From: Nitrospira sp.
GTDB lineage: Bacteria > Nitrospirota > Nitrospiria > Nitrospirales > Nitrospiraceae
DNA length: 12,252 bases
Reading direction: 5' to 3'
Assembly (NCBI GenBank): GCA_024998705.1
Contig: JACOEF010000518.1
Span: 1 to 12,252 of the forward strand
The position numbers and the translations under genes were made by a program. The notes under the pieces are model-generated. The model did not search any database, had not been told where the DNA came from, and was given only the letters and a program-made list of their open reading frames with translations. Below are positions 1,661 through 12,252 of the stretch, one piece after another (the stretch's first letter is position 1; each line of letters opens with the position of its first letter).

Positions 1661-2893
1661 TCATTCATAATGCAGCGCTTCGATCGGGTTCATGCGCGAG
1701 GCTTTGTTGGCCGGATAGAGGCCGAAGAAGATGCCCACGGCGAGAGAAAAGAGGAACGCGACGGCGATCGCTTGCGACGAGATAATCGTGGGCCAACCGA
1801 TGAGGCGAGTGAGGAGCCGTGCGCCGGCGATGCCGAATACCACCCCGGCCACTCCGCCGATGGCCGTGAGGATGATCGCTTCGACCAGAAACTGCAGCAG
1901 AATGTGGGTGCGTTTGGCCCCGACGGCCATACGGATGCCGATCTCCCTGGTGCGTTCCGTCACCGAGACCAAGAGAATATTCATGATGCCGATCCCGCCG
2001 ACCACGAGGGAAATGGAGGCGATGCTGAGCAGCATCACCATCATGGTCCGGCTGGCCCCGGCCACGGTTTTGGCGACGTCTTCCATGGTGCGGATCGTAA
2101 AGTCGTTTTATTCGGCCGGATGAATCCGGTGCCGTGCGCGCAGGAGTTCTTTCGTCTCCTCGACGGCGGCGGGAATGCTGTAGCGGTGCTGGGTGCCGAC
2201 CATGATGATGCCGACGGTCCCGAGGAACTTTGTCCCCAGGACTTTTCGCTCAGCGGTGGTGAACGGGAGGACGACGATGTCGTCCTGATCCTGTCCGGAG
2301 AGGGATTGGCCTTTGGACGAAAGAATGCCGATAACGCGCAGCGGCACGTTTTTGAGCCGGATCTGCGCCCCGATGACTTCCTCTCCGCGCTCGAAGAGGT
2401 TGTCTACGACGGTTTTTCCCAGCACCACCACTTTGGCGGCGGCGTCCTCGTCCGCTTGAGTGAAGAAGTTGCCGTCGGCTACCGGCCAGTTGCGAAGGTC
2501 GGGAAAGGCGGTGGTGGTGCCGAGTGCGATGGTGTTCCAATTCTTATGCTCGTGGATGGCTTGGAGGACGGATCGTGAGGCATAGGTGACGAGGCTGATG
2601 TCACCGACGCGTTTTTCGATCTCGCGCGCATCGTCGACGGTGAGGGTCGACACACTGCCGAGCCCTCCGCGCACGCCGCCCGTGGTGGTGGCGCCGGGGA
2701 CGATAATGAGCACATTGGTGCCGAGGCTGGCGATTTCTCGTTGGACTGAGGCGGTCGCGCCCTGTCCGAGACTCACCATGCCGACGACGGCGCCGACGCC
2801 GATGACGATGCCGAGCATGGTCAACCCCGCGCGTAGTGGATTGCGCCGGAGCACACGCAGGGCGGATTGGATGGTCAGCCAAAGAAAGCTCAT
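1661..2893 (-). pseudogene. MacB-like ABC transporter permease interrupted by an in-frame TAA
   Basis: A permease of the MacB/LolCDE type (FtsX fold), lacking the N-terminal ATPase domain of classical MacB. Such permeases work mechanically from the inner membrane, with an ATPase and a periplasmic adaptor, to drive export through an outer-membrane channel. The ATG at 2893 begins MSFLWLTIQSALRVLRRNPL, followed by the first membrane segment (about residues 17-40) and a periplasmic domain. Codon 262 is TAA (2108-2110, complement). Translation resumes in the same frame and continues for 148 codons with three membrane segments and the family ending PANKASRMNPIEALHYE, stop at 1661-1663. Without the stop the protein would be 410 residues, normal for the family. 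One substitution (for example GAA to TAA) explains it. A product ending at codon 262 would lose the FtsX core. The ATG at 2086 could permit reinitiation but has no visible ribosome binding site. The gene starts 10 bp after the adaptor gene, so the two are one operon. Confidence 0.85.
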
Positions 2894-2903
2894 GGCAGAT
2901 TCG

Positions 2904-4223
2904 TCACCGTATCTTCGGCCCAAACTCAAAGCCCGGTGGGAGTTTTTCCTGGGCGCTCTCCTCCGCCGTCGTGATCCCCACGATGGCGGCATCACCTTCG
3001 CGCACCTCGCCGGTCGTAATTTCTGTGAACAGCGAGTCGGCGATACCCGTGTTGATCGCTGCCGCCCGGACACGACCCGTCGGCTCCAACACCCAGAGCT
3101 GCGCCGCCTGGCGATCCACCGGCACACCGGGCATCCGGAATCGCAAGGCCGCGTTGGGGGCGCGGAGCGCATCTTCGTTGCGCGCCGTCACGATGGTGAT
3201 GTTGGCCGTCATGCCGGGCTTGAGTTTCAGTTCGGGGTTTTCGACGGAGATGATCACGTCGTAGGTGACCACATTCTGGATGCTGACCGGGGCGTTCCGG
3301 ACCTGCGTCACAAGGCCGTGAAAAAACTCGCGCGGGTAGGCATCTACACGAAAGTCGGCGGACGTGCCCTCGGTGACGCCGCCGATATCCGATTCGCTGA
3401 CATTGGCAATGACCTGCATGCGGGTGAGGTCCTGCGCGATCACGAAGAGGGTCGGAGTTTGGAAGCTGGCGACGACCGTTTGCCCTTCCTCTACGTTACG
3501 GGACACCACCGTGCCGTTGACCGGTGAAAAAATGGTGGTGTAGCCCAGGTCCAATTCTGCAGACGAAAGCGTCGCCTTGGCTTGATCGACCTGGGCTTGA
3601 GACAAATCCACCTGTGCTCCGGCATCGCGATAGTTGGTTCTCGACAGATCCAGGTCCGACTGGGCGACGAACTGCTGTTCCCGCAGTGCGGCGATGCGAT
3701 CCAATTCGAGCCTTTTCTGTGCGAGCATGTTCCGTGCTTTGGCCAATGTGGCTTTGGAGATTTTGAGCGCGGCTTTGGCCTGGCTGACTTTCGCTTGGTA
3801 CGGTTTCTGGTCGATGGAGGCGAGGATCTGGCCTTCCCGCACGATCGAGTTAAAGTCGGCGTAGATTTTTGCGATCTTTCCGGAGACCTGACTGCCGACC
3901 TGCACCGAGATGACGGGGTTCACGGCTCCCGTGGCTGTGACTAATGAAGTGATCGGCCCGCGATCGACGAAGAGGGTCTTATAGTGATCGGCCACTGGGT
4001 CATGAGCCCACCAATACCAGACGCCAAGAGCCAGGAGCGCGAGGAGTCCCCCCGTCCCTATCAGGAGCGGGATCCGTCGCTTTCTGAGAGGAAGGGCCCT
4101 CGCCCCGGTTATGGCAGGTGCCCGATCATGGCCTTGACCTTGCACTACCGGAACGGGAGCCAGCACGACCGGGGTCGGGTGGGTGGTCTGCCGCGGGTCC
4201 TGTTCCGGGTGATCTGCCGCCAT
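2904..4223 (-). CDS. MacA/HlyD-family periplasmic adaptor (membrane fusion protein) of an efflux pump
   Basis: 439 residues. The adaptor links an inner-membrane transporter to an outer-membrane channel. It has a cytoplasmic proline-rich N-terminus, a basic stretch (RKRR, 47-50) and one membrane anchor at about 51-72. Next come the biotinyl-lipoyl half-motif (ITSLVTATGAVNPVISVQVGS), a long alpha-helical hairpin (about 145-235, AKAALKISKATLAKARNML and similar), and the second lipoyl half (TTIFSPVNGTVVSRNVEEGQ). The beta-barrel and membrane-proximal domains follow, including VTYDVIISVENPELKLKPGM, which is typical of MacA. The start at 4223 is supported by AAGAGG (4230-4235) 6 bp upstream. A sigma-54 promoter match (4253-4266) would put the transcript start near 4241, giving an 18-nt leader that just contains this site. 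The reading frame is intact, in contrast to the permease behind it. The substrate is unknown; MacA-type systems export macrolides, peptides, siderophores or lipids. Confidence 0.9.
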   Translation of the reverse strand: MAADHPEQDPRQTTHPTPVVLAPVPVVQGQGHDRAPAITGARALPLRKRRIPLLIGTGGLLALLALGVWYWWAHDPVADHYKTLFVDRGPITSLVTATGAVNPVISVQVGSQVSGKIAKIYADFNSIVREGQILASIDQKPYQAKVSQAKAALKISKATLAKARNMLAQKRLELDRIAALREQQFVAQSDLDLSRTNYRDAGAQVDLSQAQVDQAKATLSSAELDLGYTTIFSPVNGTVVSRNVEEGQTVVASFQTPTLFVIAQDLTRMQVIANVSESDIGGVTEGTSADFRVDAYPREFFHGLVTQVRNAPVSIQNVVTYDVIISVENPELKLKPGMTANITIVTARNEDALRAPNAALRFRMPGVPVDRQAAQLWVLEPTGRVRAAAINTGIADSLFTEITTGEVREGDAAIVGITTAEESAQEKLPPGFEFGPKIR

Positions 4224-4252: not shown

Positions 4253-4266
4253 GCAAGAGAAGTGCC
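4253..4266 (-). promoter_or_regulatory. Sigma-54 promoter of the adaptor/permease operon
   Basis: Read on the minus strand: cGGCAC-ttctc-TTGCg. The -24 GG (4266-4265) and -12 GC (4254-4253) are separated by exactly 10 bases. The match to the consensus TGGCAC-N5-TTGC is complete except for the first T, which is C. Transcription would start near 4241, 18 nt before the adaptor ATG, with the AAGAGG ribosome binding site inside the leader. The position and the divergent sigma-54 activator gene support the call. Confidence 0.75.
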
Positions 4267-4297
4267 GTTGGGGGATGGGTGCACAGCTCGAGGAAGT

Positions 4298-4309
4298 GGC
4301 CTGTTGGCC
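4298..4309. repeat. GGCC dyad, proximal copy (possible activator site)
   Basis: GGCC-TGTT-GGCC on the plus strand. Its reverse complement GGCCAACAGGCC matches GGCCATACAGGCC at 4370-4382 apart from one inserted base. Its centre is about 62 bp upstream of the predicted sigma-54 start of the adaptor operon, a normal distance for an enhancer-binding protein site. Identity as an activator site is an inference. Confidence 0.4.
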
Positions 4310-4369
4310 TCGTGGGCGTGGGGCAGGAGGGCTGGTCTGTGAGGGAAGATGGGGCAATTGGCGACAGTC

Positions 4370-4382
4370 GGCCATACAGGCC
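4370..4382. repeat. GGCC dyad, distal copy (possible activator site)
   Basis: GGCC-ATACA-GGCC, the inverted near-copy of 4298-4309. Its centre is about 135 bp upstream of the predicted adaptor-operon start and about 73 bp (close to 7 helical turns) from the other copy, so both would face the same side of the DNA. It also lies about 105 bp before the NtrC-like gene and could serve autoregulation. Confidence 0.4.
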
Positions 4383-4470
4383 TGCGGCACGACGCCCCTT
4401 GACCGCCCGGGAGTAAGCCGATTAGGCTGTGCCCGCACTCGTTGCAGGCCGGTCCGGTGAGGAATCAAGA

Positions 4471-4476
4471 GAGGGA
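4471..4476 (+). promoter_or_regulatory. Ribosome binding site of the NtrC-like regulator
   Basis: GAGGGA ends 5 bp before the ATG at 4482 and supports that start. No convincing promoter is visible for this gene. TTGACC (4399-4404) with TAGGCT 18 bp downstream is a poor sigma-70 match. Confidence 0.55.
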
Positions 4477-4481
4477 CCCGT

Positions 4482-5860
4482 ATGACTGAGGAATGGGGCG
4501 CGGTATTGGTTGTCGACGATGATGCGGAGATGCGCAGTCTGCTGTGCGATGTGTTGCAAGGCCGGGGGCACCAGTGCACAGGGGTCGGGAGCGGCGACGA
4601 GGCGCTTCAGCAGCTGAGCGAGGAAGATTATGCCGTGGTCCGCACCGACCTCCGGATGAAAGGCATGCTGGGCACCGAGCTGCTGGCGGAAGTGAAACAT
4701 CGGTATCCCGATATCGGCGTGATCTTGATGACGGCCTTTGGATCTGTGGAGACGGCGGTGGATGCGATGCGGCATGGCGCCAGCGACTATCTGACCAAAC
4801 CGGTGAAAACCGAGGAACTGGTGCGGGTGGTCGAGCGCGCGATCCGGGAGGCGGCACTCCGACGGGAAGTCAGCCGGCTACGAAAAGAGGTCCACAAGGA
4901 GTACAGCTTCCATCAGATTCTCGGCAAGAGCAAGCCGATGCAAGCGGTCTTCGACCTCATTCGACGCGTGGCCGACAGCCGACCAACGTGTTGATCACCG
5001 GAGAGAGCGGGACGGGAAAAGAACTGGTCGCCAAGGCCATTCATTACAATAGCGACCGGCGGGATGCTCCGTTTGTCCCGGTCAACTGCGCCGCGATTCC
5101 CGAACAATTGCTGGAGAGCGAACTCTTCGGGCACATGCGCGGCTCGTTTACAGATGCCAAGATGGACAAGCGCGGGCTCTTTGAAGAGGCTCAGAAGGGC
5201 ACGTTGTTTCTGGATGAAATCAGTGAACTACCGCTCATGCTTCAGGCCAAACTCCTGCGCGCGATTCAGGAACGAGAGATCCGCCGCGTAGGGGCGACCA
5301 AATCCATTCCCGTGGACGTGCGCATCATCGCCGCCACGAACCTGAACCTCGCCGAGGCAGTGAAGCACAAGCGGTTCCGCGAACACTTCTACTACCGACT
5401 TAATGTCATTGAGTTGCGGCTTCCTCCGCTACGGGAGCGTCGGGAGGATATTCCGATCCTGGTGGATGCATTTTTGAAGAAGTGCGCCGACAGCAGAGGC
5501 AAGCAGGTCAAGGGACTCAGCGAATCCGCCCTCGCCATGCTGGCCGATTATGCCTGGCCGGGGAATGTACGGGAGTTGGAGAACGTGATTGAGCGGGCCG
5601 TCACGCTGAGCCATGGGGATATGATCGGCGCGGACGATTTGCCGGTGCAGGTGCAAGGATCGCGCGGCGATCGCCGGATTCTCGATGAAGCAGCGGAACA
5701 CACCCTGCCGCTGCATGAGGTAGAGAAAGAATACATCGTGAAAATTTTGGAAAAGACAGGCGGCAATAAGTATCAGGCCGCACATGTCTTGGGTATCGAT
5801 CGAAAGACCCTGTACCGGAAACTCGCTGAGATCGAAGGCAAACCACACTCAGACGCGTAG
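4482..5860 (+). pseudogene. NtrC-family sigma-54 response regulator, frameshifted
   Basis: Receiver - AAA+ - Fis-type HTH regulator that would activate sigma-54 RNA polymerase when phosphorylated. The first frame (4482-4994) encodes the receiver with Asp12/Asp13, phospho-acceptor Asp56 (RTDLRM), Thr84 and Lys106, then the linker up to RRVADS. It then runs into TGA at 4992-4994. The frame one base back, from 4979, continues exactly where the family should: [15 protein letters not shown] with Walker A at 5000-5023, Walker B LFLDEI around 5204-5221, PWPGNVREL, and the HTH ([22 protein letters not shown]) ending at 5860. One lost base in agcC-Cgacc restores [14 protein letters not shown], the usual family sequence, and gives 459 residues. 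The sigma-54-contact loop reads GSFTDA instead of GAFTGA. The stop TAG touches the ATG of the kinase gene, its presumed partner. As read, the product is a bare receiver with linker; sequence error is an equally live explanation. Confidence 0.88.
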
Positions 5861-8587
5861 ATGCACCGTCACACCCTCGCGCTGGGAGCCATCGGCGTGC
5901 AGTCCCCTCATCAGAAATCTCTGCTGCGTGAATACGGCCTTCCGTTGCTGTTGACGATCGGGATCTTCGTCCTGGATCTGTCGGCGCCCGCCGGGATCGA
6001 CCTGTGGTTGCTCTATGCGATTCCGTGGACTCTGATTGCCGCCTCCTCCCTCGGCCCGGTGTCCCGCTCTTGTATGGGGGCGGTGGTGTTGCTGGCGCTC
6101 ATCGGCCCTCTTGCGTCATCTACCGAGTCCCTGCCGTTCCTCACATGGCTCAATCGTCTCCTCGGCATCGGGATCATGGGGCTCGTGGCTGCGTTGATCG
6201 CCGGCCGTCGGTCTTCTCTTCTGAGCCCGGATGCGAGCCCCGGCCTGTCGGACGGAACGTTCGCGGCGCCAGAGACTGAGCGACATCGAACTGCGGCCGC
6301 CGACGCGCTGGCCGCCGAAGCCCGCGTCCGGGCTGAAGAAGCGGTGGCCGATGCGATGCTCGGAGAACGCCGTGCCGAAGCAGAACTGCATCAAGACAAA
6401 CTCCGCTTCGAAGGCATCGTGCACTCGGCGATGGATGCCATCGTGACGGTCGACGAAGCGCACAAGATCGTGCTGTTCAACCAGGCGGCGGAAAAGATGT
6501 TTCAGTGGGGCGCCGAGGAAGTATTGGGACGGCCGCTGGATCGATTGCTTCCCGAGCGTTTCCGTAGTGCCCATCACGAACACATCCGGGAGTTCGGCCG
6601 CTCCGGTATCACCGCACGGCAAATGGGCGCGTTGGGCATGGTGACGGGGGTCCGGGCCAACGGGGAAGAATTTCCGATCGACGCCTCGATCTCGCAGATC
6701 GGTACGGATGGGACGCGGTACTACACCGTCATCCTCCGCGATATGACCGAACGGAAACGGCTCGAACAGGAACTGGCGGAGCGCGAGGCCCTCTTACGGG
6801 CGATCATCGAGACCGAGCCTGAATGTGTGAAACTGCTCGACCTGGATGGCACGGTCCGAACCATTAATGCGGCAGGGCTTGCCATGCTCGAGGCCACGAG
6901 CAGTGCCGAGGTCGTCGGACGGGATATGTGCTTTCTGGTCACCGCCGAGTTTCGATCGCGCGTCCGCGAAGTGGTCGGTAAGGCCGGACGGGGAGAAACG
7001 GGGCGATTGGAGGTTCAGATCGTCGGTTTCCTGGGGACTCCCCGGTGGCTGGATATGCACGTGGTGCCTCTGCGTTCAGCCGATAGCACCGTTACCGCGA
7101 TCTTGGGAGTGACGCGCGATGTGACCGAGTGGAAAAAAACGGAAACGCGGCTGCGCCAAAGCGAAGACCGGTATCGCCGGCTCCTGGCGGTCTTGCCGGA
7201 TGCCATCCTGGTCAACCGTGAGGACCGGATCATCTTTATCAACGAACAGGGGGTCCGGCTGTTCGGAGCCCGGTTGGCAGAGGAGATTCTCGGAAAGTCG
7301 CTGTACGACTTGGCGCATCCCGACTACCACGAGTTGGTCGGTGCGCGTATCCGGCATCTCCTGGAGCCTGGCAACACGGTGCCGGAGGTCGAGGAAAAGA
7401 TTGTGCGGTTGGATGGGGTGAGTGTGGATGTGGCCGTCAGGGCCGCTCGGTTCCAGGACGAGGATGGGGTCGGGATACTGGTCGTCTTGCGGGACATTTC
7501 GATGCGCAAAGCGGCGGAGCAGAAGTTGCGGGAGAGCGAAGAGCGGCTTCAAAGTTTATTGGGGGCGATGGAGGATGTGATCTGGTCCTCGTCGCTGGAT
7601 CAATCCACGATGTTGTATGTCAGTCCGTCCGTCAGAGAGATCTATGGACGCCCCGCCGAAGCGTTTTGGGCCCGACCTTCGTTATGGCTGGAGGTCGTTC
7701 ATCCCGACGATCGCGTGATTGCCGAACAGGCGCGACAGGCTCTTCTGACGACGGGCGAGTTCGATGTGGAGTATCGCATCATCCGGCTCGACGGCGACCT
7801 GCGGTGGTTGCATGACCGCGGACGGATCATCAAGGATGCAGAAGGCCATCCGTTGCGGATCGATGGCATTGCCAGTGACATCACGGAGCGGAAGCGCCTC
7901 CAAGCGCAACTTCGTCGGACGGAGCGGGTGGCTGAGCTTGGAACGGTGGCTTCCGGCATGGCGCACGAGATCGGCACGCCCATGAACGTGATTCTGGGCC
8001 GGGCCGAATACCTGATGGAGCGCACGAAGGAAGAGCCGGTCAGGAAGGGGCTCCAGACCATCGTCAGCCAGGTCGAACGAATCACGCGAGTCATGAATCA
8101 GTTGCTGGCGTTTGCCCGTCGGCGTCCGATCGAACACCGTGCCTCGGACTTGCGTCGGACCATTGAGGACAACCTGGAAATTTTCCAGGAACGCCTGTCG
8201 CATAGCCGCATCAGCGTCGAAACCTCATTTGCCGACGCCTGCCCATTCGTACACGCCGATGCCGATCAGATGAGCCAGGTCCTGATCAATCTGGTGATGA
8301 ATGCGATTCATGCGATGCCTGAGGGAGGGGTCTTGAAGCTGGCATTGGCGCCGGACCGTGAGATGGTCCGGTTCACGGTGTCGGATAGCGGTCACGGGAT
8401 GCCCCGCGACGTGATTGCCAAGGTGTTCGACCCGTTTTTTACCACCAAGGAGTTTGGGAAGGGAACCGGCTTAGGTCTGACGGTGGTGAAGGGCATCATT
8501 GAGGAGCACAGCGGGACGATCGAGGTGGAGAGTAAGCCTGACCAGGGGACGACCTTCACCATCTGCCTGCCGGTAGGTAAGAGCTGA
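5861..8587 (+). CDS. Membrane-bound sensor histidine kinase with four PAS domains
   Basis: 908 residues. The N-terminus holds about four hydrophobic segments (27-42, 47-65, 71-86, 97-115) with almost no periplasmic loop, followed by a charged coiled coil (about 140-185). Four PAS domains lie at about 183-298, 305-422, 432-546 and 556-675, each ending in the D-(M/V/I)-(T/S)-x-(R/W)-K type motif. The kinase core follows: H-box SGMAHEIGTPMN with His702, N-box NLVMNAIHAM (Asn810 and Asn814), VSDSGHGM (Asp842), the F-box FDPFFTTK and GTGLGL at 868-873. All catalytic motifs are intact. It would phosphorylate the NtrC-like regulator encoded immediately upstream, and possibly the stand-alone receiver downstream. 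The ligand is unknown; PAS domains can sense redox state, gases or small molecules. The ATG abuts the preceding TAG and lacks a good ribosome binding site. GTG at 5897 has GGGAG (5884-5888) 8 bp upstream and could be the true start, 12 codons shorter. Confidence 0.93.
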   Translation: MHRHTLALGAIGVQSPHQKSLLREYGLPLLLTIGIFVLDLSAPAGIDLWLLYAIPWTLIAASSLGPVSRSCMGAVVLLALIGPLASSTESLPFLTWLNRLLGIGIMGLVAALIAGRRSSLLSPDASPGLSDGTFAAPETERHRTAAADALAAEARVRAEEAVADAMLGERRAEAELHQDKLRFEGIVHSAMDAIVTVDEAHKIVLFNQAAEKMFQWGAEEVLGRPLDRLLPERFRSAHHEHIREFGRSGITARQMGALGMVTGVRANGEEFPIDASISQIGTDGTRYYTVILRDMTERKRLEQELAEREALLRAIIETEPECVKLLDLDGTVRTINAAGLAMLEATSSAEVVGRDMCFLVTAEFRSRVREVVGKAGRGETGRLEVQIVGFLGTPRWLDMHVVPLRSADSTVTAILGVTRDVTEWKKTETRLRQSEDRYRRLLAVLPDAILVNREDRIIFINEQGVRLFGARLAEEILGKSLYDLAHPDYHELVGARIRHLLEPGNTVPEVEEKIVRLDGVSVDVAVRAARFQDEDGVGILVVLRDISMRKAAEQKLRESEERLQSLLGAMEDVIWSSSLDQSTMLYVSPSVREIYGRPAEAFWARPSLWLEVVHPDDRVIAEQARQALLTTGEFDVEYRIIRLDGDLRWLHDRGRIIKDAEGHPLRIDGIASDITERKRLQAQLRRTERVAELGTVASGMAHEIGTPMNVILGRAEYLMERTKEEPVRKGLQTIVSQVERITRVMNQLLAFARRRPIEHRASDLRRTIEDNLEIFQERLSHSRISVETSFADACPFVHADADQMSQVLINLVMNAIHAMPEGGVLKLALAPDREMVRFTVSDSGHGMPRDVIAKVFDPFFTTKEFGKGTGLGLTVVKGIIEEHSGTIEVESKPDQGTTFTICLPVGKS

Positions 8588-8599
8588 TGGCCTATTGCA
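8581..8599. repeat. Possible further copy of the degenerate intergenic repeat
   Basis: gagctgatggcctattgca at the 3' end of the kinase gene matches the reverse complement of 1643-1625 at 13 of 19 positions. A second AGCTTATGGCC-like word follows at about 8602-8612. Similarity is weak; it is listed because it flanks the same spacer as the copy at 8667-8692 in opposite orientation. Confidence 0.2.
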
Positions 8600-8666
8600 T
8601 AGAGCTTATGGCCGGGATTGAAGAATCCTTGGGATTGGTGGGACTCTTTTCTTCGCTCGTACCAAA

Positions 8667-8692
8667 CGCCATCGGCTATTCGCCGTGAGCTC
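8667..8692. repeat. Degenerate intergenic repeat, copy 2
   Basis: The partner of 1618-1643 (20 of 26 identical, same orientation), lying in the spacer after the kinase gene. Confidence 0.35.
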
Positions 8693-8810
8693 CGCTCCTC
8701 CCGCTGTAGCGCTTCGGGACAGGGCTTTTTCCGGGGTGGGGCCTTTCTCGCCAGAGCCTGATTCCTATGCTCCCTGTTTGGTAAACCATTCATAGATATT
8801 TATTATTGAA

Positions 8811-8823
8811 ATTCAAATATTTG
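8811..8823 (+). promoter_or_regulatory. IHF-like or activator element before the receiver promoter
   Basis: ATTCAA-ATAT-TTG fits the IHF consensus WATCAA-N4-TTR with one mismatch. It overlaps the perfect 10-bp palindrome CAAATATTTG. It ends 24 bp upstream of the -24 element at 8848. The same ATTCAA-N4-TTG pattern occurs before the other plus-strand sigma-54 promoter (11125-11137), in both cases followed by one base and AA. Confidence 0.4.
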
Positions 8824-8847
8824 CAATCTCTTGTGGATCGCCTGAAA

Positions 8848-8862
8848 TGGCACATCGTTTGC
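8848..8862 (+). promoter_or_regulatory. Sigma-54 promoter of the receiver gene
   Basis: TGGCAC-ATCGT-TTGC, a full match to the sigma-54 consensus with GG (8849-8850) and GC (8861-8862) exactly 10 bases apart, followed by G as at the other two sites. The predicted start is near 8874. It lies directly downstream of an AT-rich block, typical for enhancer-activated promoters. Confidence 0.82.
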
Positions 8863-8876
8863 GTTATTTTGTGCTC

Positions 8877-9308
8877 ATGGTGACCTATTCTGAAGGAACG
8901 CGCGCGGAAGGGCGCACACCAGCCGTGTTGTTGGTGGTGGAGGATGACAAGGATATGCGGAGCCTGCTCTGCGATGAGTTGTGGGGAGAGGGCTATCAAT
9001 TGCGTGAAGCGAGCAATGGTGACGAAGGGCGGGCTGCGGTCATGCGGGCGGCCCCTGATTTGATCGTGACCGATTTAAAGATGCCGGCCGGAGGTTTCGA
9101 ATATGTCCATCGATTGAGGCGCTGTGTGCCTGGGTGCCCCATTATCGTGATGACTGCCTTCGGCGATGCCCAGACGAAAGACGAGGCGCTGAAAAACGGT
9201 GCCACGGCCTATTTCGACAAGCCGGTTCGGCTGTCGGAATTGAAGGCCACGGTGAAGCAACTGTTGCAGCATCCCGGAGGTCGGCCGGCGGATGGACTGG
9301 TACACTGA
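8877..9308 (+). CDS. Stand-alone receiver-domain protein (CheY/Spo0F-like response regulator)
   Basis: A single receiver domain with no output domain, acting by protein contact or phosphotransfer. From the ATG at 8877 (143 residues) the acid pocket is Asp23/Asp24, the phospho-acceptor Asp66 (VTDLKMP), then Thr93 and Lys115 (DKPV); all key residues are present. An in-frame ATG at 8847 overlaps the predicted sigma-54 promoter and lies upstream of its start site, so it is unlikely. The ATG at 8877 would be only 3-4 nt from the 5' end, nearly leaderless. GTG at 8925, with GGAAGGG at 8906-8912, is an alternative that would begin just before the first beta strand. The receiver resembles that of the NtrC-like protein (both have D-x-MRSLLCD and MTAFG), suggesting duplication. 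It is probably phosphorylated by the upstream kinase, and may act as a phosphate sink or as an input to the activator encoded next. Confidence 0.85.
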   Translation: MVTYSEGTRAEGRTPAVLLVVEDDKDMRSLLCDELWGEGYQLREASNGDEGRAAVMRAAPDLIVTDLKMPAGGFEYVHRLRRCVPGCPIIVMTAFGDAQTKDEALKNGATAYFDKPVRLSELKATVKQLLQHPGGRPADGLVH

Positions 9309-9343
9309 ACATCGGCGGTGGCGGATACGTGTTTTCGCGAGGT

Positions 9344-9360
9344 CTCCCCCAAGGGGGGAG
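9344..9360 (+). terminator. GC hairpin after the receiver gene
   Basis: CTCCCCC-AAG-GGGGGAG, a 7-bp stem with a 3-nt loop, 35 bp after the receiver stop. Only a mixed GGTTGTCTTC follows, not a T-run, so termination would be partial or factor-dependent. It may separate transcription of the receiver from that of the activator gene. Confidence 0.5.
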
Positions 9361-9362
9361 GG

Positions 9363-9392
9363 TTGTCTTCGTCGTGGCAGGCGTAGTACAAA
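9363..9392 (+). promoter_or_regulatory. Weak sigma-70-like promoter before the activator gene
   Basis: TTGTCT (9363-9368) and TACAAA (9387-9392) with an 18-bp spacer, each matching 4 of 6 consensus bases. It lies just after the hairpin at 9344-9360 and 60 bp before the activator ATG. It could supply constitutive activator, but this is a weak match. Confidence 0.25.
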
Positions 9393-9439
9393 TAGGGCCT
9401 CTCTAGTGTAGAAAGGCTCCGCTTGGTTCCTATCGAAAC

Positions 9440-9445
9440 GAGGAG
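9440..9445 (+). promoter_or_regulatory. Ribosome binding site deciding the activator start
   Basis: GAGGAG, 7 bp before the ATG at 9453. This favours ATG 9453 over the in-frame TTG at 9423, which has no such site. Confidence 0.75.
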
Positions 9446-9452
9446 TGATGAG

Positions 9453-10859
9453 ATGGCCGGATCTCAATCACAAGTAACGCCCCGTTCTCCCTTTACCGAT
9501 CCGATTCTGGCTGCTCGCTTGGAGGCTCTGAAGCAATTGGCTGATGGGCTGACCGACCGCGTCGTCGTGATGGATCGGGAGCTCAATGTCGTGTATGCGA
9601 ATGCCGCCGCTTGGGCCCAAGCCGGGGCATCGCCCGCAGTCACCAAGCCGGCCAAGTGTTATCAAGCGTTTGTCCAAATGACCGATCCTTGCGGGACCTG
9701 TCCCGCTGAGTCGGTGTTTACGACGGGAGAGGTGCTGACGGTTTCCTGCAACACATCGGGCGATGGGACAGCCTGTGGTCTGCACCAGGCATTTCCCTTG
9801 GTATCGTCCTCAGGGGAGGTTGCCTCGGTCCTCGTGCTGTTTCATAAGCGGCCGGAATCGCTCAGTATTCCAACGTCGCTGTCCCAGCACAGGCTGGGTC
9901 GGTCTCGCCCGGAACGGACCGAATCGAGATTAGGCGATCTGGTCGGCGCGAGTCAGGCCATGCATCAGTTGTTTGAGATGATCCGTTTGGTGGCCGATAG
10001 TTCCGCCACGGTGTTGATCCAGGGGGAAAGCGGCACGGGAAAAGAACTGGTGGCCCGGACGATTCATCAGACCAGTTATCGTCGCGACAAGCCCTTTGTG
10101 GTGGTTGATTGCGGGGCGCTTCCGGAAACGTTGTTGGAGAGTGAACTATTCGGCCATGTGAAGGGGGCATTTACAGGGGCGGCAGGGGCCAAGCCAGGGC
10201 TGTTCGAAGAGGCTGACGGGGGCACGATCTTCTTAGATGAGATCGCCGATACTTCTCCGACCTTCCAGGCTAAGCTCCTGCGCGTCTTGCAGGAAGGGGA
10301 GATCAAGCGAGTCGGCGGAACACAGCCGGTCAAAATCGATGTCCGTGTCATTTCGGCTACCAACAAGGATTTGACGGACCTTGTAAAGGCTAAGGCGTTT
10401 CGTCAAGACCTCTACTACCGGTTGGCCGTGTTGCCCGTTCATCTTCCGCCGTTACGTGACCGGAGAGGCGATATTCCTCTGTTAGTGTGCAAGTTTATCG
10501 AGGATTCCTGCCAGCGGCATCGTCAGGAATTGCGTCAGGTGAGCGAAGAGGCCATGCGCGCCTTGACTGCTGCGCCCTGGCCCGGGAATGTGCGAGAACT
10601 GCAGCATTACATTGAGCGCGCGGTGGTGACGACGACCCACCGGGAGCTGACGTGTGCGGATCTGGTCGCGGTGGGATCTGCTTCTGCTGATGATGGCGAC
10701 CTCCGGACGGTTGGCCGTGGTGCAGCGCGGCAGGCTGAGCGGGTTCGTATCCTTCAGGCGCTGCAACAGACCTCAGGGAATCGGCTGCAAGCGGCTCGGT
10801 TACTCAAGATCAGTCGGGCCAGTCTCTACAACAAGCTGCACGACCTGGGCATTCAATAG
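9453..10859 (+). CDS. Sigma-54-dependent activator with Cys-rich N-terminal PAS domain
   Basis: 468 residues: PAS domain (about 20-135), AAA+ sigma-54 interaction domain (about 165-400) and Fis-type HTH (about 430-468). There is no receiver domain, so its activity is probably set by the PAS domain or by a partner protein. Walker A is GESGTGKE at 191-198; the sigma-54 loop is the canonical GAFTGA at 238-243; Walker [18 protein letters not shown] and the HTH (NRLQAARLLKISRASLYNKL) are complete. The PAS domain holds Cys69, Cys80, Cys83, Cys99 and Cys108, including a PCGTCP motif, which could bind iron-sulfur, haem or another metal, or act as a thiol switch; which of these is unknown. Start chosen at 9453 because of GAGGAG 7 bp upstream. 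It is the only intact sigma-54 activator in the window and lies next to two sigma-54 promoters (8848 and 11179), so it is the best candidate to drive the receiver and multicopper oxidase genes. Confidence 0.92.
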   Translation: MAGSQSQVTPRSPFTDPILAARLEALKQLADGLTDRVVVMDRELNVVYANAAAWAQAGASPAVTKPAKCYQAFVQMTDPCGTCPAESVFTTGEVLTVSCNTSGDGTACGLHQAFPLVSSSGEVASVLVLFHKRPESLSIPTSLSQHRLGRSRPERTESRLGDLVGASQAMHQLFEMIRLVADSSATVLIQGESGTGKELVARTIHQTSYRRDKPFVVVDCGALPETLLESELFGHVKGAFTGAAGAKPGLFEEADGGTIFLDEIADTSPTFQAKLLRVLQEGEIKRVGGTQPVKIDVRVISATNKDLTDLVKAKAFRQDLYYRLAVLPVHLPPLRDRRGDIPLLVCKFIEDSCQRHRQELRQVSEEAMRALTAAPWPGNVRELQHYIERAVVTTTHRELTCADLVAVGSASADDGDLRTVGRGAARQAERVRILQALQQTSGNRLQAARLLKISRASLYNKLHDLGIQ

Positions 10860-11011
10860 CTCAGGCGCGTGCCAGGATTTTCTGTCACCTCCCTTCTCGT
10901 AATTCACTCAATTCTTCTGTGTAATCAGCCAGATCCTTCTTCGCCTCCAGCTGGTCTTAATGAACAGCTGTCCCATATTGCCCCAAAAAACGGCATCGAT
11001 CGTCCATCATT

Positions 11012-11072
11012 TTAGACAGTGCAAGTCATTGTATTTTAAGCATTATTGTTAATTGTATGGCTGGCTGTCTAA
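11012..11072. repeat. Inverted repeat TTAGACAG / CTGTCTAA (possible activator sites)
   Basis: TTAGACAG (11012-11019) and CTGTCTAA (11065-11072) are perfect 8-bp inverted copies 45 bp apart, centred roughly 135-190 bp upstream of the predicted start at 11205. GACA/TGTC half-sites are common in enhancer-binding protein sites; an activator role is inferred. Confidence 0.35.
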
Positions 11073-11124
11073 TCGCCTGGAAAACTGTAGCATTTCACGC
11101 CCGTTCCGTTATTCCTACGAGAGT

Positions 11125-11137
11125 ATTCAACGTATTG
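11125..11137 (+). promoter_or_regulatory. IHF-like or activator element before the oxidase promoter
   Basis: ATTCAA-CGTA-TTG, one mismatch from the IHF consensus, 41 bp upstream of the -24 element at 11179. It shares ATTCAA-N4-TTG-Y-AA with 8811-8826. Confidence 0.4.
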
Positions 11138-11178
11138 TAAACATGAGCAAAGTTCTGTTGATAGTTATTTCTGTCTGT

Positions 11179-11193
11179 GGGCATATCAATTGC
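11179..11193 (+). promoter_or_regulatory. Sigma-54 promoter upstream of the multicopper oxidase
   Basis: gGGCAT-ATCAA-TTGC, with GG (11180-11181) and GC (11192-11193) exactly 10 bases apart. It differs from TGGCAY-N5-TTGC only at the first base. It is followed by GTT, as at the 8848 promoter. The predicted start near 11205 leaves a 230-nt leader before the oxidase ATG. Confidence 0.65.
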
Positions 11194-11231
11194 GTTGTAG
11201 CCGCAGTGCTGGGGAAGGTGAGGGTGATTAG

Positions 11232-11366
11232 GACCGGCCTCCGAATAACCTGCTCCCTCAAACTTTGAGGACATCCTTCACCAGCCCTTTTTCCTTTTGG
11301 AGCGTTTCGTGGAGGGAACGAGGAGAGGCCGGGGGTAGCCGGGGTCCTGCCTGACGGAGGCCGGTC
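11232..11366 (+). repeat. 12-bp inverted repeat enclosing the oxidase leader
   Basis: GACCGGCCTCCG (11232-11243) and CGGAGGCCGGTC (11355-11366) are perfect reverse complements 111 bp apart. In RNA they could close a large stem enclosing most of the leader; as DNA they could be a pair of protein sites. Confidence 0.6.
11256..11270 (+). other. Small hairpin in the oxidase leader
   Basis: CCTCAAACTTTGAGG folds as a 6-bp stem with an ACT loop, inside the region enclosed by the 12-bp inverted repeat. It has no T-run. Confidence 0.4.
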
Positions 11367-11416: not shown

Positions 11417-11424
11417 AAGGAGGG
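11417..11424 (+). promoter_or_regulatory. Strong ribosome binding site of the multicopper oxidase
   Basis: AAGGAGGG, within a longer AGGAGGGAGG run, 10 bp before the ATG at 11435. It fixes the start. Confidence 0.8.
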
Positions 11425-11434
11425 AGGCCGACAT

Positions 11435-12252
11435 ATGAGGTCTTCAGTGCATGTGTCACAGCGCAAGCGCATACGCCCTGGGGCGTTGCGTAAGCTGCAG
11501 GCGGCGCTGCTATCGGGCAGTTTGCTCGCGGCGCCGTGGGTGTTTGCGGCCGGGCCGGGTGATCAGTCGCATGAGGGACATGCGACGCCGGTTGCCATGC
11601 CGGGCTGGACCCAGACCCTGAAGGGTCAGACCGTGGTGGAAAACGCCATGGAGGGTCGTGCGGGTAATGCAGAGAAGATGGAGATGCAGCACCACCGCCT
11701 GATGGAGAAGTTGGAGCAACAGGCGCAGACGGATGCCAAGGCGCAGCAGACCTCCGGTGCATTCAATGAAATGTCGATGATGCACCAATATATGGGGCAG
11801 GATGGGAGCAGCTTCCTGCTGGCGTCCGATTCGTCCAAGGGCGAGCCGGTCATGACGTCAGGGGGGAAATGTCCCGCCAATGCGCCGGTTAAGACGTACG
11901 ACGTTTCGATGATCAACATCGAAATCAGCTTGAACCGATGGCTCGACTTCTATCCCGGGTACATGTACGTCCATACCGGGGATATCGACAAGGTTCGTGC
12001 TGAGGAAACCAAGAACAAGGAAGCGCGGGAAAAAGACGGATTCGATCCGGGTGCGGTGACGACCGGAAACCAGGGCGATGCGATTCAGCCGCTGGTGCTC
12101 CGCGCCAACCAGGGCGATTGCGTCAAGATGACGCTGCGCAATCAGATGGAGGGCGAGGATGGCAGCTTGGTCATCCAGGCCTCCAGCATGATCGTGAGCG
12201 CCACGGGCAAGCCTGCGACCACGACGAACCCGGACACGGTGGTGTCGCCGGG
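11435..12252 (+). CDS. Exported multicopper oxidase-type cupredoxin protein, N-terminal part, 3' end outside window
   Basis: 272 codons are visible and the frame is open at the window end. Residues 1-38 look like a secretion signal: a long basic N-region (RKR, RPGALRK), a hydrophobic core ALLSGSLLAAPW and a likely cut after VFA. A Met/His-rich stretch follows (SHEGHA at 45-50, MEMQHHRLM at 82-90, MSMMHQYM at 113-120), which could bind copper. The first cupredoxin domain begins after Cys146 (CPANAPVKTYDVSMINIEISL) and includes PLVLRANQGDCVKMTLRNQ (219-237), the pattern of domain 1 in multicopper oxidases. The His ligands of the copper centres should lie beyond the window, so catalysis cannot be confirmed. 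The mature protein would be periplasmic. Its substrate is not known from this sequence; proteins of this appearance are found in Nitrospira. A strong ribosome binding site, a structured leader and a sigma-54 promoter precede it. Confidence 0.8.
   Translation, partial: MRSSVHVSQRKRIRPGALRKLQAALLSGSLLAAPWVFAAGPGDQSHEGHATPVAMPGWTQTLKGQTVVENAMEGRAGNAEKMEMQHHRLMEKLEQQAQTDAKAQQTSGAFNEMSMMHQYMGQDGSSFLLASDSSKGEPVMTSGGKCPANAPVKTYDVSMINIEISLNRWLDFYPGYMYVHTGDIDKVRAEETKNKEAREKDGFDPGAVTTGNQGDAIQPLVLRANQGDCVKMTLRNQMEGEDGSLVIQASSMIVSATGKPATTTNPDTVVSP

Follow-up and report, generated by a model that had tools for sequence, protein, structure and literature searches.

The window analysed here, by which we mean the whole 12,252-nt stretch of a Nitrospira MAG, encodes an export system, two sigma-54 activators with a kinase and a receiver protein, and the start of a giant oxidase. 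On the minus strand lie a MacB-type ABC permease (1661..2902), with Pfam FtsX and MacB_PCD pieces and an in-frame stop between 2087 and 2110, and a macA-like periplasmic adaptor (2904..4223) matching HlyD_D23 and RND_mfp above their cut-offs and the MacA model below its own. The plus strand carries an NtrC-like response regulator (4482..5860; receiver, AAA+ and Fis domains), a histidine kinase (5861..8587; four PAS stretches, HisKA and HATPase in Pfam), a single-domain receiver (8925..9308; Response_reg; in our reading probably with a GTG start), a Cys-PAS sigma-54 activator (9453..10859; Sigma54_activat, lid and HTH_8), and the N-terminal part of an MnxG-like giant multicopper oxidase (11435..12252), within which the contig ends. 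Both activators contain Sigma54_activat (PF00158), and by eye the Cys-PAS protein has GAFTGA, the loop motif of this class, where the NtrC-like protein has GSFTDA. The two Cys motifs of the former are both present in 67 of 79 loci, including the window. The domains thus agree with an initial annotation of this DNA that had named an NtrC-like regulator, its kinase and a Cys-PAS activator, except that the NtrC-like frame is broken here near 4980-4994 and that the PAS_4 match falls below the Pfam cut-off. This gene is intact in 23/24 genus loci tested and macB in 20/21, the window being the exception in both cases. The intact NtrC-like orthologue of N. defluvii scores under every NCBIfam cut-off shown (best AtoC, 496.3 of 714), including that of the NtrC equivalog TIGR01818 (453 against 558.6 bits), to which the two pieces in the window score 118.0 and 316.4. 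A conserved genus block upstream of the regulator gene contains what we read as a sigma-70-like promoter (4399..4428, plus; TTGACC, 18 bp, TAGGCT).

Sigma-54 promoters have GG and GC dinucleotides at a set spacing within a TGGCAC-N5-TTGC-like context, and three sites in the window show both this spacing and a consensus-like context. They precede macAB (4253..4267, minus, CGGCACTTCTCTTGC, predicted start 4241), the receiver gene (8848..8862, plus, TGGCACATCGTTTGC, predicted start 8874) and the oxidase gene (11179..11193, plus, GGGCATATCAATTGC, predicted start 11205). Under an approximate sigma-54 matrix they take ranks 1-3 on both strands of the window (scores 17.2, 14.7 and 13.0; next 11.9). 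Counting the window, they are kept in 22/23, 25/25 and 24/24 genus loci, respectively, the one locus without a macA-side site being L132, where the macA match is partial (53%). With L132 excluded from the macA alignment, a site scoring at least 12.9 occurs in 22/22, 25/25 and 24/24 aligned rows, compared with column-shuffle means of 0.4, 0.2 and 0.57 rows and maxima of 5, 2 and 6 (30 shuffles per region). Three of the 29 genus genomes, which have no activator match, are not counted, a locus with an unmatched flanking gene drops from the count for that region, and L043-L050 are omitted where L123-L147 represent the same genomes; many of the loci are close kin, and the counts are not independent events. 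Among distant loci, 31/51 have a receiver-gene site scoring 12.9 or more, the remaining 20/51 having no strong site there (for the receiver, regulator and activator upstream counts, the gene match had to begin by residue 12 and to sit far enough from the contig end). For the oxidase, genus and distant loci pooled, 52/59 have a site of at least 12.9 and 56/59 one of at least 12; oxidase counts exclude loci without an oxidase match or with short upstream sequence, and the 59-locus count also matches beyond residue 60. The proposal that all three sites lie in non-coding DNA holds provided the receiver gene begins at GTG 8925; the second site would overlap the receiver ORF as listed from 8847. A single rpoN match was found in the genome. 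A 15-mer identical to one of these sites on contig C422 was considered as a copy of the locus and rejected, as blastn aligned nothing in the 3 kb around it (L006) with the window.

Gene order is similarly stable, with regulator and then kinase ahead of the activator in 23/23 genus and 29/33 distant loci. Alignment across relatives shows three predicted sigma-54 promoters conserved before macAB, before the receiver gene with the Cys-PAS activator, and before the MnxG-like oxidase, in line with earlier claims of three such promoters, each with a different transcription unit behind it and sigma-54 regulators close by. The Cys-PAS activator gene itself has neither a sigma-54 site nor a dyad pair of the type described below within 150 nt in any of 24 genus loci, which fits co-transcription with the receiver gene. 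A GC-rich inverted repeat seen by eye between these two genes, at about 9341-9360, could stop transcription. A macA match above 60% is present at 21/23 genus loci versus 0/33 distant loci with enough upstream sequence, so that export looks like a genus-level addition to the module. In 23/41 distant loci an oxidase gene is no more than 3 kb away from the activator; where found, it is usually preceded by the sigma-54 site and by dyad B and the leader RNA described below.

Candidate binding sites upstream of the promoters fall into two types. A 17-bp dyad, A (TGNNGC-N5-GCNNCA), occurs in pairs 31-34 bp apart before the macA promoter, the receiver promoter and the regulator's own gene: A1a (4350..4366) and A1b (4383..4399) are 33 bp apart, the latter adjoining the -35 element of the regulator promoter, and A2a (8705..8721) and A2b (8737..8753) are 32 bp apart. 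A different dyad, B (TGTCYA-N6-TGGAMA type, with 18-bp geometry), precedes the oxidase promoter as B3a (11001..11018) and B3b (11066..11083). Genus counts for both dyads were made on the matrices' own training sites; with the A matrix trained on the genus only, A pairs were recovered in distant loci before 27/51 receiver genes and 31/49 regulator genes, against a block-shuffle expectation of 0.00. The difference between A and B suggests two binding specificities and hence a cascade. One further A-type dyad, A3 (10969..10985), is also found upstream of the oxidase promoter, which complicates any assignment of activators to dyads. Prediction of a regulon from the A dyad alone was abandoned, as perfect A dyads number 98 genome-wide versus 87 when the pattern is read backwards, each palindrome being listed on both strands.

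The oxidase transcript is predicted to start at its sigma-54 start with a three-way-junction RNA (11203..11289, plus), in which P1 pairs 11208-11218 with 11275-11285 and an invariant 13-mer spans 11231-11243; the window's own copy has one mismatched P1 pair. Across homologues 98.0% of cells are paired, 13/22 pairs show double changes and none of 500 shuffles equals this, the covariation exceeding both shuffles and slid controls. It is borne by P1 and P3, P2 and its apical stem being without two-sided variation. The RNA, which like the frame break is absent from the initial annotation, was detected in 182/235 Nitrospirales genomes, with one match in the genome of the window. For 61 of 62 exact 13-mers a sigma-54 box (score of at least 12) ends 35-39 nt before GGACC, and this nearly fixed distance places the beginning of the fold only a few bases from the predicted +1. 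The oxidase lies downstream in 33/35 loci inspected, 30 of these 35 being the best-scoring matches. Eighteen of 18 further copies also precede oxidase paralogues, nine of them with a sigma-54 score below 5 just upstream. When the whole window was searched against Rfam, nothing with E<=1 matched the leader, and the one match elsewhere, to a miRNA model at 8831-8871 (E 0.3), scored far short of the gathering threshold. The leader thus appears to be a previously undescribed folded RNA that starts at the oxidase sigma-54 site.

Complementarity between this RNA and the oxidase ribosome-binding site suggests what it may do. The sequence GGAGGCCG (11423..11430, plus) at the oxidase Shine-Dalgarno is complementary to the invariant CGGCCTCC of the leader hairpin; a 12-nt complement to the hairpin, CGGAGGCCGGTC (11355..11366, plus), and an extra GAGGCCG copy (11325..11331, plus) lie between the two. 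GGAGGCC stands at the ribosome site of 55/60 oxidase loci, and of 31/36 outside the genus, versus 1/240 other gene starts. Starts were selected in part for having GGAGG, without regard to the CC after it, and GGAGG of any kind occurs at only 16/240 control starts, so that the fair comparison for the CC is 55/59 versus 1/16. A cruder start finder applied to 93 leader instances, diverged paralogues included, recovered GGAGGCC in 63 and no start in 7; several ribosome sites of the paralogue copies read GGAGGCTG or otherwise. In nested folding of 12 leaders that we picked from 54, pairing at the ribosome site costs energy in nearly all, nested folds excluding pseudoknots. In the minimum folds of the window and L091 the hairpin pairs with an upstream GAGGCCG copy, and in that of L107 with the copy near the start.

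Taken together, we consider it likely that the locus is a conserved Nitrospirales sigma-54 module, in which a kinase-regulator-activator-oxidase cascade is joined by a translational step in the leader. The PAS kinase would phosphorylate the NtrC-like regulator, and the regulator would bind the paired A dyads and use sigma-54 to activate both macAB and the receiver/activator unit, probably also adjusting the sigma-70 promoter of its own gene. Binding of the Cys-PAS activator, or of both activators, to the dyads before the oxidase may then switch it on; this assignment of activators to dyads is inferred from position. On the resulting transcript the invariant CGGCCUCC of the leader could pair with the GGAGGCCG ribosome-binding site, providing translational control. 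More tentatively, and as somewhat less than an even prospect, we suggest that expression of the oxidase passes two gates, a two-activator sigma-54 cascade and an order-wide RNA switch whose hairpin chooses between GGAGGCCG and the upstream GAGGCCG copies. A single relay for export and oxidase, as originally envisaged, is plausible. Conservation supports the promoters, the units behind them and the local regulators; the dyads suggest two specificities, and none of the 33 distant loci with enough upstream sequence has a macA match above 60%.

That the sigma-54-like sites are chance matches is a reading to which we give very little credence. Sequence alone would not reveal the three as special: the MAG has 84 matches to GGCAYN5TTGC versus 43 for the reversed pattern, and 15 to exact TGGCACN5TTGC versus 7, and a three-mismatch scan of the window found no excess (46 found, 48 expected). 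Genome-wide rank, once suggested as a check on the sites, fails to separate them from chance matches and was dropped as evidence. Conservation in nearly every genus locus, where column shuffles average fewer than 0.6 rows, and the near-constant distance from box to leader RNA argue against chance. A rather unlikely arrangement, though a more credible one than chance, is that the NtrC-like protein alone reads all dyads, with the Cys-PAS activator serving targets elsewhere and no cascade. A3 is indeed A-like (mean score under the A matrix 13.1, minimum 5.4) and sits 32 bp upstream of B3a, which is the A-pair spacing. Against this, B dyads score about -11 under the A matrix and differ in geometry, and in distant oxidase upstream regions the best dyad-B match reaches p<=0.04 in 36/36 while A3 does so in only 18/36.

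For the leader, the main competitor to ribosome-site pairing is action through a protein, for example CsrA bound to the GGA-rich copies, or through stabilisation of the 5' end, which we regard as doubtful yet a substantial possibility. CsrA is present in 5/5 genomes searched, so the GGA-rich leader could be protein-bound instead; in 41/56 leaders the stretch from the RNA to the ribosome site holds one or more additional copies of GAGGCCG or GGAGGCC, versus 0.07 per shuffled leader, and the junction hairpin is retained in the predicted minimum fold of 9/12. The CC that follows GGAGG, rare at other starts, nevertheless corresponds to the hairpin's invariant GG, and we know of no reason why CsrA would need an invariant 13-mer. 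A riboswitch responsive to copper or manganese and dedicated to the oxidase would fit the invariant hairpin and the single gene family found downstream, in both the inspected loci and the further copies. We nonetheless judge it improbable, given that no Rfam model matches at the leader and that the single match in the genome means that no other metal gene there carries a copy at that threshold.

By sequence the oxidase of this locus is MnxG-like: its N. defluvii orthologue (1645 aa) matches MnxG of PDB 9bxa in five stretches (E 1.6e-83), as well as Cu-oxidase_3. In its passages on the enzyme, a Nitrospina study describes a putative multicopper oxidase that is also conserved in Ca. N. defluvii and for which a ROS/Mn role is proposed (PMC3578206); this is likely the same gene, and the word 'sigma-54' is absent from the text of that study. 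Members of Nitrospira rank among the main oxidisers of nitrite and ammonia. With reference to MnxG genes in their MAGs, a part in removing manganese in water filters has been suggested for them (PMC12070406), and the passages on manganese removal do not describe control of the oxidase. What the module provides is a set of exact and testable promoter positions, sites where the activators may bind, and a leader RNA, present in 182/235 Nitrospirales genomes, that could be probed in vitro without culturing the organism. If our reading is true, a giant oxidase would be gated by both a sigma-54 cascade and an RNA switch of an order-wide leader class.

Several known systems share parts of this design. 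As in NtrB/NtrC, AtoS-AtoC and ZraS-ZraR, a receiver/AAA+/Fis regulator stands beside a PAS kinase with sigma-54 targets; unlike these, the cluster adds a lone receiver, a second (Cys-PAS) activator and an oxidase target. The A dyads resemble those of E. coli glnA, where 17-bp dyads are paired about three helical turns apart. Sigma-54-dependent and NifA-like regulators have been noted near nxrAB in Nitrospira, in the passages of PMC6606698 on these genes, and are of the same activator class in the same organisms; no nxr gene was recognised by eye among the ORFs of a 21-kb N. defluvii stretch. The downstream gene is an MnxG relative, and its closest known counterparts are MnxG of Bacillus and the putative multicopper oxidase of Nitrospina and Ca. 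N. defluvii (PMC3578206). Finally, a covarying 5' leader with a complement at the ribosome site recalls riboswitch-type leaders that sequester the Shine-Dalgarno, but differs from them in having no Rfam family at E<=1, in preceding one gene family so far, and in a fold that begins at a sigma-54 start.

The window is the entire contig C30 of a 4.16 Mb MAG (1028 contigs, 88.8% complete), and Ca. Nitrospira defluvii is among the nearest named relatives fetched (91% identity for the Cys-PAS activator, an AAA+ sigma-54 activator encoded at 9453..10859 plus). The cluster opens with macB and macA on the minus strand, followed by genes for an NtrC-like regulator, a four-PAS kinase, a single receiver and the Cys-PAS activator, and takes in the first part of a multicopper oxidase gene; domain matches bear out the regulator, kinase and activator which the initial annotation had placed between the promoters. 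By sequence comparison the oxidase is a relative of MnxG, with a length of 1645 aa in N. defluvii. Where 8 kb or more of upstream sequence is available, the activator gene is preceded by those of regulator and kinase in 23/23 loci within the genus and 29/33 outside it (exceptions L102, L104, L107 and L108). A macA match above 60% occurs in 21/23 and 0/33, respectively. An oxidase lies at most 3 kb downstream of the activator in 23 of the 41 distant loci with enough sequence. At L085 (11899), L087 (8602) and L091 (11727) the oxidase is not adjacent, and TGGCAC-N5-TTGC is found ~390–560 nt past the activator, before other genes; in two loci, L089 (before 8543) and L094 (before 13096), a gene that reads in translation as AmoC-like separates the activator gene from a strong sigma-54 site. 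The long open frame opposite macB (1598-2578 plus) is probably merely antisense to it.

In this assembly the frame of the NtrC-like gene is broken (4980-4994) and macB carries an in-frame stop (2087-2110). The regulator is intact in 23/24 genus loci, the window being the sole exception, and in 36/37 distant loci (L056 has a stop), while macB is intact in 20/21 genus loci. An error of the draft assembly is the simplest reading of both defects, although a real lesion is conceivable.

The three sigma-54 sites reported in the initial annotation were recovered in place, on the macA side (4253-4267 minus), before the receiver (8848-8862 plus) and before the oxidase (11179-11193 plus), and are the top three scoring positions of the window under an approximate sigma-54 matrix. 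As a pattern alone they do not stand out genome-wide, with 84 sites for GGCAYN5TTGC versus 43 for its reverse, and a three-mismatch scan of the window returned 46 matches versus 48 expected. Conservation in related genomes is decisive: the same site is the best match of its intergenic region in 22/23, 25/25 and 24/24 genus loci, respectively, window included (3/29 genus genomes without an activator match fall outside these counts), and column shuffles gave a mean of 0.2–0.57 rows versus 22, 25 and 24 observed. The macA-side site is missing only at L132, where macA itself is matched just partially (53%). A strong site also precedes the receiver in 31/51 distant loci. We thus consider the three predicted promoters real because they are conserved.

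A 17-bp A dyad (TGNNGC-N5-GCNNCA) is found in two pairs: one, with a spacing of 33 bp, in the interval from the macA promoter to the regulator gene, and the other, with a spacing of 32 bp, ahead of the receiver promoter. Applying a matrix built from genus sites to distant loci revealed pairs 31–34 bp apart before the receiver in 27/51 and before the regulator gene in 31/49, with 0.00 expected from block shuffles. One A dyad abuts the −35 element of the regulator gene's conserved sigma-70-like promoter, which suggests that the regulator may control its own gene. Upstream of the oxidase promoter, a B dyad (TGTCYA-N6-TGGAMA) reached p ≤ 0.04 in 36/36 distant regions and in the 24/24 genus regions that form its own training set (50 shuffles each), and an A-like dyad did so in 18/36 and 19/24, respectively. 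As an economical reading of dyads and promoters, we infer a cascade in which the NtrC-like regulator would control the Cys-PAS activator and the latter the oxidase; the regulator may also act directly on the oxidase. The cascade assumes a common transcript for receiver and activator. In its favour, neither a sigma-54 site nor an A pair lies within 150 nt of the activator gene in 24 genus loci; against it, a GC-rich inverted repeat seen by eye between the two genes (~9341-9360) is a possible terminator or attenuator. A-like dyads also form a pair, with a spacing of 34 bp, at L054 (14778-14828), ahead of a gene outside the cluster that is possibly a further regulon member.

The most surprising part of the module is the oxidase leader RNA, ~230 nt that are conserved far above the surroundings of the promoter. 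Its first 87 nt (11203..11289 plus) are predicted to fold into a three-way junction of P1 (11 pairs), P2 and P3, with P2 bearing the invariant GGACCGGCCTCCG (11231-11243). Standard pairs fill 98.0% of pair cells across 42 sequences, 40 of them distinct, and 13/22 pairs show double changes, values reached by 0/500 shuffles. The double changes are confined to P1 and P3; the P2 apical stem never varies, so covariation is uninformative on it, for or against. A covariance model matched 182/235 genomes of Nitrospirales (27/37 genera), leaving 53 without a match at E ≤ 0.01, and Rfam gave no match at the leader. In a draw from the phylum 112/395 genomes carried the element, and all matching genomes among the matches listed belong to the order. 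An oxidase directly follows in 33/35 loci (30 being best-scoring matches), the exceptions being L179, with just a 73-aa oxidase match, and L181, with none. All 18 further copies (L183-L195), picked from second or weak matches, lie ahead of oxidase paralogues (48–78% identity), and nine of them keep the fold without a sigma-54 site of score ≥5 just upstream, indicating that the RNA and the promoter are separable. For the main set, the distance from the end of the sigma-54 box to GGACC is 35–39 nt in 61/62 exact copies of the 13-mer, putting the fold at the predicted start of transcription.

The ribosome site of the oxidase carries GGAGGCC, complementary to the invariant leader hairpin, in 55/60 loci versus 1/240 other gene starts. 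Only 16 of these controls have any GGAGG, and the fair contrast is therefore 55/59 versus 1/16; a cruder start finder gave 63/93 instances, diverged paralogues included. In 41/56 leaders, GAGGCCG or GGAGGCC occurs at least once more. CsrA was found in 5/5 genomes searched, making protein binding a live rival explanation of how the leader functions.

Passages of published work concern sigma-54 regulators near nxrAB (PMC6606698), a multicopper oxidase with a proposed ROS/Mn link (PMC3578206), and Mn removal, with MnxG described for MAGs of Nitrospira (PMC12070406). The literature covered also included PMC11995701, PMC12342949, PMC9040806 and PMC12542776, as well as PMC11109978 and PMC6429828, which contained none of the terms looked for. 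No title on the promoter set or leader RNA appeared among the matches listed (e.g. best 25 of 76, 20 of 928 and 10 of 317; subscription papers and preprints lie outside this scope). The circuit is an additional example of a familiar sigma-54 type, and the leader RNA makes it a distinct variant.
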